A DNA stretch of 64,000 nucleotides. Origin: Haladaptatus cibarius D43. Lineage in GTDB: Archaea > Halobacteriota > Halobacteria > Halobacteriales > Haladaptataceae. The notes beneath the pieces were generated by a model that saw nothing but the letters and a program-made list of their open reading frames with translations, was not told the DNA's origin and ran no database searches. This document shows, in pieces, positions 57,502 through 58,044 of the stretch (positions are counted from its first letter, which is position 1; every line of letters starts with the position of its first letter). The DNA lies in contig NZ_JDTH01000001.1 of NCBI RefSeq assembly GCF_000710615.1, positions 248,001 through 312,000 of the forward strand. Direction: 5' to 3'. The translations under genes were made by a program, and so were the position numbers.

Positions 57502-57549
57502 AATTTGGATACTGTGAATCTTTACAATTTGGATACTGTGAATCTTCAC
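57502..57549. repeat. 24-bp tandem duplication
   Basis: AATTTGGATACTGTGAATCT plus four more bases occurs at 57502-57525 and again at 57526-57549 with one change, lying between element copies C and D. It could be a slipped-strand duplication or a pair of protein sites. Confidence 0.75.
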
Positions 57550-57557
57550 AAATTCTA

Positions 57558-57750
57558 TAGCGCGTGCGCCAACAGACTCGAGGACTCGTCGTCCGAGGGT
57601 CTGTATGGGTTCGCGCGAGGTCTTCGTGAGTAGAGCGAACGAATGGCGCGTCGGAGCTTGTCACCGACGGTGGATGAGTGAACGAGCGCCAGCGAGTGAG
57701 CGAATCGGTTGGGAAGGCATGCAGTGCTGTCTCATTGGAGTCGGAAGTAG
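57558..57750 (+). repeat. Dispersed structured element, copy D
   Basis: Hairpin ACAGACTC-GA-GGAC / GTCC-GA-GGGTCTGT (57572-57604), with one T-G wobble, is preceded by GCGCGTGCG. A further CGTCGG/CCGACG hairpin follows (about 57643-57665). The core TCGGTTGGGAAGG is at 57705-57717, then a 3' block 'CATTGGAGTCGGAAGTAG'. It faces copy C head to head. Confidence 0.65.
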
Positions 57751-57807
57751 CTAGCGTCACAAACGAACACAAAAAATCCCAAACACGACACAAAAAGCGA
57801 ACGGGCA

Positions 57808-57874
57808 CGATGGGATTCGAACCACCCGAGAACCTGCGTTTCATGCAGAACCTCGGTCTACTTCGAACCCATCG
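57808..57874. other. 67-nt near-perfect hairpin carrying a tRNA-Arg 3' fragment
   Basis: Nested pairing: CGATGGG (57808-57814) with CCCATCG (57868-57874); TTCGAA with TTCGAA; CCGAG with CTCGG; CTGC with GCAG, around a 7-nt loop (57838-57844). Its first 16 nt, plus six bases before, repeat exactly the 3' end of the adjacent tRNA-Arg. It is not a cloverleaf. Confidence 0.7.
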
Positions 57875-57969
57875 CTTGTGCTGATTTGCTCCTCACGTTC
57901 GTTCACCGTGGTTTCGCTTCGCTCACCACGAGATTTCACTCATACTTCGTGAAATCGTCACAAAATCAG

Positions 57970-58044
57970 CGGGCACGATGGGATTCGAACCCACGGCCGT
58001 CGGATTAGAAGTCCGACGCTCTATCCAGACTGAGCTACGTGCCC
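57970..58044 (-). tRNA. tRNA-Arg (anticodon TCT)
   Basis: Minus-strand cloverleaf of 75 nt. Acceptor GGGCACG pairs with CGTGCCC, with discriminator G. The D arm begins TAGCTCAG, and the anticodon arm TCGGA-CTTCTAA-TCCGA gives anticodon TCT (decodes AGA). The T arm is GTGGGTTCGAATCCCAT. CCA is not encoded and no intron is present. The last 22 bases (including the discriminator side) are repeated 168 bp downstream in the hairpin at 57802. Confidence 0.95.

Follow-up and report, generated by a model that had tools for sequence, protein, structure and literature searches.

We found that the hairpin downstream of a tRNA-Arg(TCT) gene of Haladaptatus cibarius D43 belongs to a large family of short non-coding cassettes, about 90-200 bp in size, which lie singly or in rows behind many haloarchaeal tRNA genes and are apparently undescribed. 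At the level of sequence comparison, the presence or absence of a unit at the tRNA end is precise, units form arrays, their arms are matched to the host tRNA and their cores are exchanged. We tentatively propose, with a confidence that falls somewhat short of an even chance, that these non-coding haloarchaeal cassettes, arranged head to tail behind tRNA genes, may be gained, multiplied, exchanged and lost through a folded mimic of the tRNA end. No annotation, Rfam family or paper covering the units was found, and the literature on the core sequence, on haloarchaeal tRNA-downstream repeats and on tRNA fragments yielded no prior description among open-licence papers, a body of text to which most subscription journals do not belong.

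The window (the whole stretch of 64,000 nt that was analyzed) carries the host tRNA-Arg(TCT) gene at 57970..58044 (ARAGORN; Rfam RF00005, 73.4 bits) on the minus strand, as are all elements of the unit. Nucleotides 54-73 of the tRNA, from the T-loop to the discriminator base, form direct repeat 1 (57970..57989). In tRNA orientation the tRNA end is followed by the hairpin A spacer, a 5' arm, a core and a second nt 54-73 copy; together these make up a complete inserted cassette of 168 bp (57802..57969), composed of spacer/hairpin A plus hairpin B and delimited by the empty site in genome G004. The hairpin A region (57880..57970) was assigned by folding and by equivalent A hairpins in other units. 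Its outer stem pairs GCTGATTT (57963-57970, discriminator base included) with AAATCAGC (57880-57887) and encloses further stem-loops, GATTTCAC..GTGAAATC and CGTGGT..ACCACG. Hairpin B (57802-57874) is long and imperfect. Its 5' arm CGATGGGTTCGAA (57862..57874), supported by the fold and by covariation in the family, is the inverse of the 3' half of the tRNA T-arm; its class-I core GACCGAGGTTCTG-CATGAAACG-CAGGTTCTCGG (57826..57858), placed by family-wide core matches, has inner stems that flank a conserved GTT/GTT internal loop; and its 3' arm is the distal tRNA copy itself, direct repeat 2 (57802..57821). The hairpin at 57802-57874 has a fold energy of -36.0 kcal/mol on the plus strand (z = -5.5) and -39.4 kcal/mol on the minus strand (z = -5.3), and none of 200 dinucleotide shuffles folded as well.

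A preliminary description of this DNA had noted the duplication and the hairpin, and these observations hold: the tRNA-Arg(TCT) 3' end at 57970-57991 recurs without a mismatch as the 22 bases CGGGCACGATGGGATTCGAACC at 57802-57823, so that direct-repeat identity extends to 57991, the spacing between the two copies is exactly 146 bp, and the nested stems CGATGGG/CCCATCG, TTCGAA/TTCGAA, CCGAG/CTCGG and CTGC/GCAG with a 7-nt loop are present. Its coordinates were right and the extent given to the feature was too small, since the whole unit spans 57802-57969 and a second multi-stem structure lies between the copies. A tRNA gene or pseudogene identity for the unit was rejected, as the covariance model calls only the true tRNA-Arg. 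Elsewhere in the window, upstream of the hairpin region, there is a tandem duplication of about 24 bp (AATTTGGATACTGTGAATCTTYAC x2) at 57506-57553, in an intergenic stretch rich in GAGCGAA-type repeats.

The tRNA's original downstream flank (57703..57801), defined by alignment with G004, holds the T-runs that directly trail the tRNA in the empty site. This bears on the idea that the unit is a transcription terminator of the tRNA. A T5 run does stand about 10 nt past the hairpin in the window, but it is part of the original flank and is also found in the empty site; the longest T-run after a unit is mostly 2-4 in 74 loci, and many tRNAs have no unit or several. We consider a terminator role hardly credible.

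The preliminary description had proposed to look for the hairpin near other tRNA genes, and the outcome was strongly positive. When the genome of H. cibarius D43 was searched with the region, hairpins were found behind tRNA-Leu(TAA), tRNA-Lys(TTT) and tRNA-Phe(GAA), each with the common core flanked by the tail of that same tRNA. About 13 of 44 tRNA contexts in this genome have units, in total 15 hairpin units with two types of core, every one lying downstream, as counted by eye from the sequences of the 44 scanned loci; upstream matches in the same scan were rejected as not being hairpin units. The exact class-I core GACCGAGGTTCTG-N-AGGTTCTCGG was found in 90 stretches among 84,980 species genomes, all labelled haloarchaeal. 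In a sample of 391 Halobacteria genomes it is present in 87, representing 39 of 86 genera, and the reversed control of the core gave 0 matches in the same 391 genomes. A pattern independent of the core, GGATTTGAA-N28-58-GTTCAAATCC, matched 21 of 26 Halobacteria, compared with 0 among 132 genomes from the other classes of the phylum. The class-I copies stand behind tRNAs for Arg, Ser, Leu, Val, Lys, Trp, Pro, Phe, Asp, Gly, His, Thr, Ile and Glu, and with Met also among the host tRNAs at least 15 amino acids are represented in all. A flanking tRNA was readable for 97 distinct class-I copies; in these, the distance from a same-strand tRNA to the start of the downstream core ranges over 34-497 bp and is mostly 45-90 bp.

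The arms of the units are specific to their host tRNA. Over 13 tRNA-distinguishing nucleotides (T-stem end and acceptor), the copies match the host tRNA at 11.4 of 13 positions versus 7.1 of 13 for other isotypes. Pairing of the 5' arm with the tRNA-specific T-stem bases (the four outer positions, -12 to -15) exceeds that in all 200 shuffles. Across 33 copies without gaps, 93% of the cells are paired. Two-sided changes number 53, versus 19.5 expected in shuffles; none of 500 shuffles reached 53, and slid registers never reached the real pairing either. The inverted arm, which the preliminary description took for a gain by one copy, is instead a co-varying feature of the whole family, with GTTCRAAT as the conserved stem sequence. 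Past the T-loop the own tRNA is the best match of the 5' arm in only 26 of 95 copies. Core stems change with compensation too (for example CCAAG/CTTGG in G004), and class II cores have T-T and C-A mismatches at fixed places. Between G-T and A-C pairs in the arms, a comparison that bears on which strand folds, G-T is not clearly favored. Ten class-I copies at different tRNAs (L016, L039, L047, L050, L053, L064, L065, L069, L108 and L117) have in common a single inserted base in the copied T-loop, where TTCACAATC mostly replaces TTCAAATC; this amounts to an extrahelical base at a fixed stem position.

The main rival explanation is a functional RNA: the units would be co-transcribed with the tRNA and processed to stable structured RNAs like E. 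coli rtT, with the hairpin and core under RNA selection. The preliminary description had named a small hairpin RNA derived from a tRNA as one of its two readings. Points in favor are the strong covariation in the arms and the inner stem, the conserved internal loops (GUU/GUU in class I, the mismatches in class II) and the location of the unit, which separates the tRNA from its original T-rich flank. On the other hand, presence of the unit is patchy even among close species, core types interchange at a single locus, the apical loops are GNA triloops and not typical RNA tetraloops, and no Rfam family exists; a search of the unit against Rfam at E<=10 returned chance matches only, with no sub-threshold rtT match. 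On balance we regard an RNA function as unlikely, though a serious possibility.

Several features point to folding of the hairpins as DNA. The loop of hairpin A is inverted between G000 and G003 (GAAGTATGA / TCATACTTC) with nearly unchanged arms, and the apical loops GAA and TTC replace one another among units. The simplest account of the loop inversion is a hairpin formed by the DNA itself. GNA accounts for 60 of 87 triloops at the apices, where only 3 tetraloops were found; GNA loops closed by G-C form extraordinarily stable, nuclease-resistant DNA mini-hairpins (PMC4686876). These signs of a hairpin at the DNA level leave room for an RNA function too. As a separate observation, low-complexity haloarchaeal intergenic repeats of the GAGCGAAGCGAG type (e.g., L034, L070, L093) are readable as GNA-triloop hairpins with tandem G-A mismatches, and the same grammar also shapes hairpins A and B.

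Comparison of orthologous loci shows how precisely units come and go. In the empty site of G004 the end of tRNA-Arg is followed directly by TTCGCGTTTTT...GTGTTCGTTTGTGACGCTAGCTACTTCCGACTCCAATG, the sequence which trails the distal copy in the window. Of 28 orthologous tRNA-Arg(TCT) loci from the family, a unit is present at no fewer than 17, and at least 6 are empty (counted by eye). At tRNA-Lys, a 110-bp unit of G000 is precisely missing in G003 and a related unit is found in G004; since the more distant G004 keeps a related unit, loss is the simpler reading in this case. The Arg and Lys empty sites fit loss as well as gain. Units are also multiplied and recombined: tRNA-Lys in one species is followed by an array of three identical 111-bp units, and tRNA-Ser of G034 by five units with three core types; in the sister genome G028 this tRNA-Ser is followed by another combination of units. 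Unequal exchange between the 20-bp repeats is one way in which arrays can grow. In L306 and L308 the same spacer and arm occur with different cores within one array, and spacer similarity is 0.454 for copies at the same tRNA versus 0.336 for copies at different tRNAs. Therefore, spacers and arms tend to stay with the tRNA locus and cores are common to several loci. On secondary, plasmid-like contigs, G002, G004, G006 and G008 have additional tRNA-Leu(TAA) genes of almost the same sequence, which hint at mobile elements bearing this tRNA.

Such exchanges could be purely mutational, in which case ancient tRNA-3' repeats would be maintained through unequal exchange together with repeat-mediated deletion and template switching, with no recombinase and no function. 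Deletion mediated by short direct repeats has been described for haloarchaea (PMC3119063), the loop inversions point to template switching, and the spacers tend to remain with their tRNA. Template switching, however, should erase the fixed core mismatches (GTT/GTT; T-T and C-A in class II), and the units are restricted to Halobacteria and to tRNA 3' ends. We therefore judge a purely mutational origin to be quite improbable.

Another possibility is that the units are attR-type scars of tyrosine-recombinase elements which had integrated in tRNA genes and were later deleted, the core being an old element end. The preliminary description had likewise offered the scar of an excised element as one of two readings. 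The part of that idea that stands is the attachment-site view, in so far as the unit is precisely inserted or deleted where the tRNA ends and G004 has an exact empty site. Archaeal integrases integrate preferentially at tRNA 3' ends (PMC8371274), and the direct repeats run from the T-loop to the discriminator base. The scar of a large excised element, on the other hand, is not what was found, as units of about 90-200 bp recur behind many tRNAs, the units hold no genes, and no integrase or recombinase lies beside the four class-I loci of the H. cibarius genome, where all PF00589 genes are far away. No gene-bearing element or integrase was seen between the repeats among about 97 class-I loci. 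The more than 100 copies of tRNA nt 54-73 fall at 0-200 bp (80) or 200-400 bp (35) behind the tRNA and almost never beyond, and none is associated with a gene-bearing element; because of this clustering within 400 bp, the units are not the ends of gene-bearing islands. The same cores are found at very different tRNAs in 39 genera, and the viral and phage sets are without any element bearing this end. Deleted-element scars thus appear improbable to us.

The viral and plasmid searches behind this last point were as follows. Viral contigs (IMG/VR) gave no match to the exact class-I core, strict or loose, to the class-I/II arm pattern or to the class-II pattern, and blastn of the window hairpin against plasmid and phage records gave none at the threshold used. 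Generic tRNA-arm patterns in viral contigs hit mainly phage tRNA-Ser genes and bacterial sequences. Consensus hairpins compared with plasmids matched three haloarchaeal replicons, two of them relevant. In Natronorubrum bangense the two matches are units behind tRNA-Val and tRNA-Gly, and in Haloarcula halophila plasmid NZ_CP119561 the match lies inside a tRNA gene within a 23-tRNA array; a Halobaculum plasmid match was rejected as an unrelated low-complexity stretch. In the Haloarcula case (L321:3927-4070), 69 bases with a class-II hairpin core split a tRNA of anticodon GCA precisely in front of its T-loop. The array of 23 tRNA genes is virus-like and near a DNA polymerase B gene. This is a unit inserted within a tRNA, which is perhaps broken and perhaps spliced. 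Six bacterial viral contigs of IMG/VR (L153, L155, L157, L158, L161, L162) contain near-perfect inverted repeats which derive from the 3' end of a tRNA, GGATTTGAACC...GGTTCAAATCC (long stems, 51-61 bp); in one of the contigs the repeat was called as tRNA-Gln. They are possibly an analogous tRNA-end hairpin in bacterial proviruses.

The closest known counterpart is the E. coli tyrT/rtT repeat (RttR, RF00391; tyrT and tyrV), in which tandem units likewise stand directly behind a tRNA and each closes with a repeat of the tRNA 3' end. Downstream of tyrV in E. coli K-12 (L319; NC_000913 1285800-1288200) there are three 178-bp rtT units, and every one holds an inverted arm GGGGAAGGAT that pairs with the tRNA-Tyr 3' copy ATCCTTCCCC and closes a long hairpin, the same layout as in the haloarchaeal units. 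In the haloarchaeal family there is one unit in the window, and arrays of 2-5 occur in relatives. In contrast, the E. coli repeat involves one tRNA (Tyr), near-identical units and an included CCA, whereas the haloarchaeal family covers at least 15 isotypes, is class-wide, has interchangeable cores and arms that co-vary per tRNA. The RF00391 model had 0 matches in the H. cibarius genome with a positive E. coli control. We set the haloarchaeal family apart from rtT because of the missing model match, the far wider spread and the many tRNAs. An rtT transcript has been reported and tentatively tied to the stringent response, according to the work cited in PMC2965389.

Other known systems share single traits with the units. 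As in integrons, small units stand in a row at one anchor with an imperfect hairpin at each far end, and as in attC the stem imitates a double-stranded recombination site with unpaired or mismatched bases at fixed places. The attC R'/R'' core consensus is GTTRRRY, which GTTCRAA does not fit; moreover, the anchor here is a tRNA gene, a cassette ORF is absent, IntI is not adjacent and the stem is a tRNA 3' end. The attL/attR sites of archaeal tyrosine-recombinase elements (SNJ2, SSV and pNOB8 types) have the tRNA 3' duplication and the precise empty site in common with the units, but here there is neither element nor integrase, and the inverted arm and common hairpin core are additional. The small mobile repeats, PATEs and MITEs of Haloquadratum (PMC3119063) are also short non-coding palindromes with precise deletion over short repeats; they are dispersed and IS-related, whereas the haloarchaeal units are bound to tRNA 3' ends and tRNA-specific. 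A MITE or IS-derived element was likewise rejected for the units, whose ends are host-tRNA-specific copies and not TIRs with a tRNA-independent target-site duplication. In Methanopyrus kandleri a palindrome follows tRNA genes at a distance of about 10 bp (PMC5217627), again an archaeal palindrome behind many tRNAs, but this motif is short (CGTTA-N9-TAACG) and without tRNA duplication.

Our preferred reading, movement through a folded tRNA-end mimic, would work as follows. Each unit is built as hairpin A followed by hairpin B, in which the 3' strand copies nt 54-73 of the host tRNA and the 5' strand is its inverse. When single-stranded, the tRNA-sense strand is predicted to fold into a stem reproducing the 3' end of the tRNA gene in double-stranded form, and enzymes or replication errors acting on the tRNA end could therefore act on the hairpin. 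In one option, a tyrosine recombinase using tRNA 3' ends might join the single-stranded unit to the tRNA end in the manner of integron attC; this is plausible given the preference of archaeal integrases for tRNA 3' ends, the recombinase being a candidate enzyme only. In another, replication template switching between hairpins may swap cores. Loss could also proceed via repeat-mediated deletion. Points against this reading are the absence of a recombinase gene beside the four class-I loci of the H. cibarius genome, the negative scans of phage records and, for the class-I and class-II patterns, of IMG/VR, and the fact that the Arg and Lys sites and the arrays also fit loss and unequal exchange. 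That the units constitute a tRNA-anchored, integron-like archaeal system, in which a tyrosine recombinase, either of the host or mobile, inserts and exchanges tRNA-3'-mimic cassettes and of which the E. coli tyrT/rtT repeats would be a bacterial relic, is a more far-reaching claim that we consider rather unlikely.

By the looser pattern, units are present in most Halobacteria examined, 21 of 26. In these units the same 20-nt tRNA segment ends the gene, forms the repeat and the hairpin arm, and is the point of exchange. The four roles of one segment make DNA-hairpin recombination, the evolution of tRNA 3' flanks and rtT-like RNAs testable in genetically tractable haloarchaea, and the odd rtT repeats of E. 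coli gain a structural counterpart in another domain of life.
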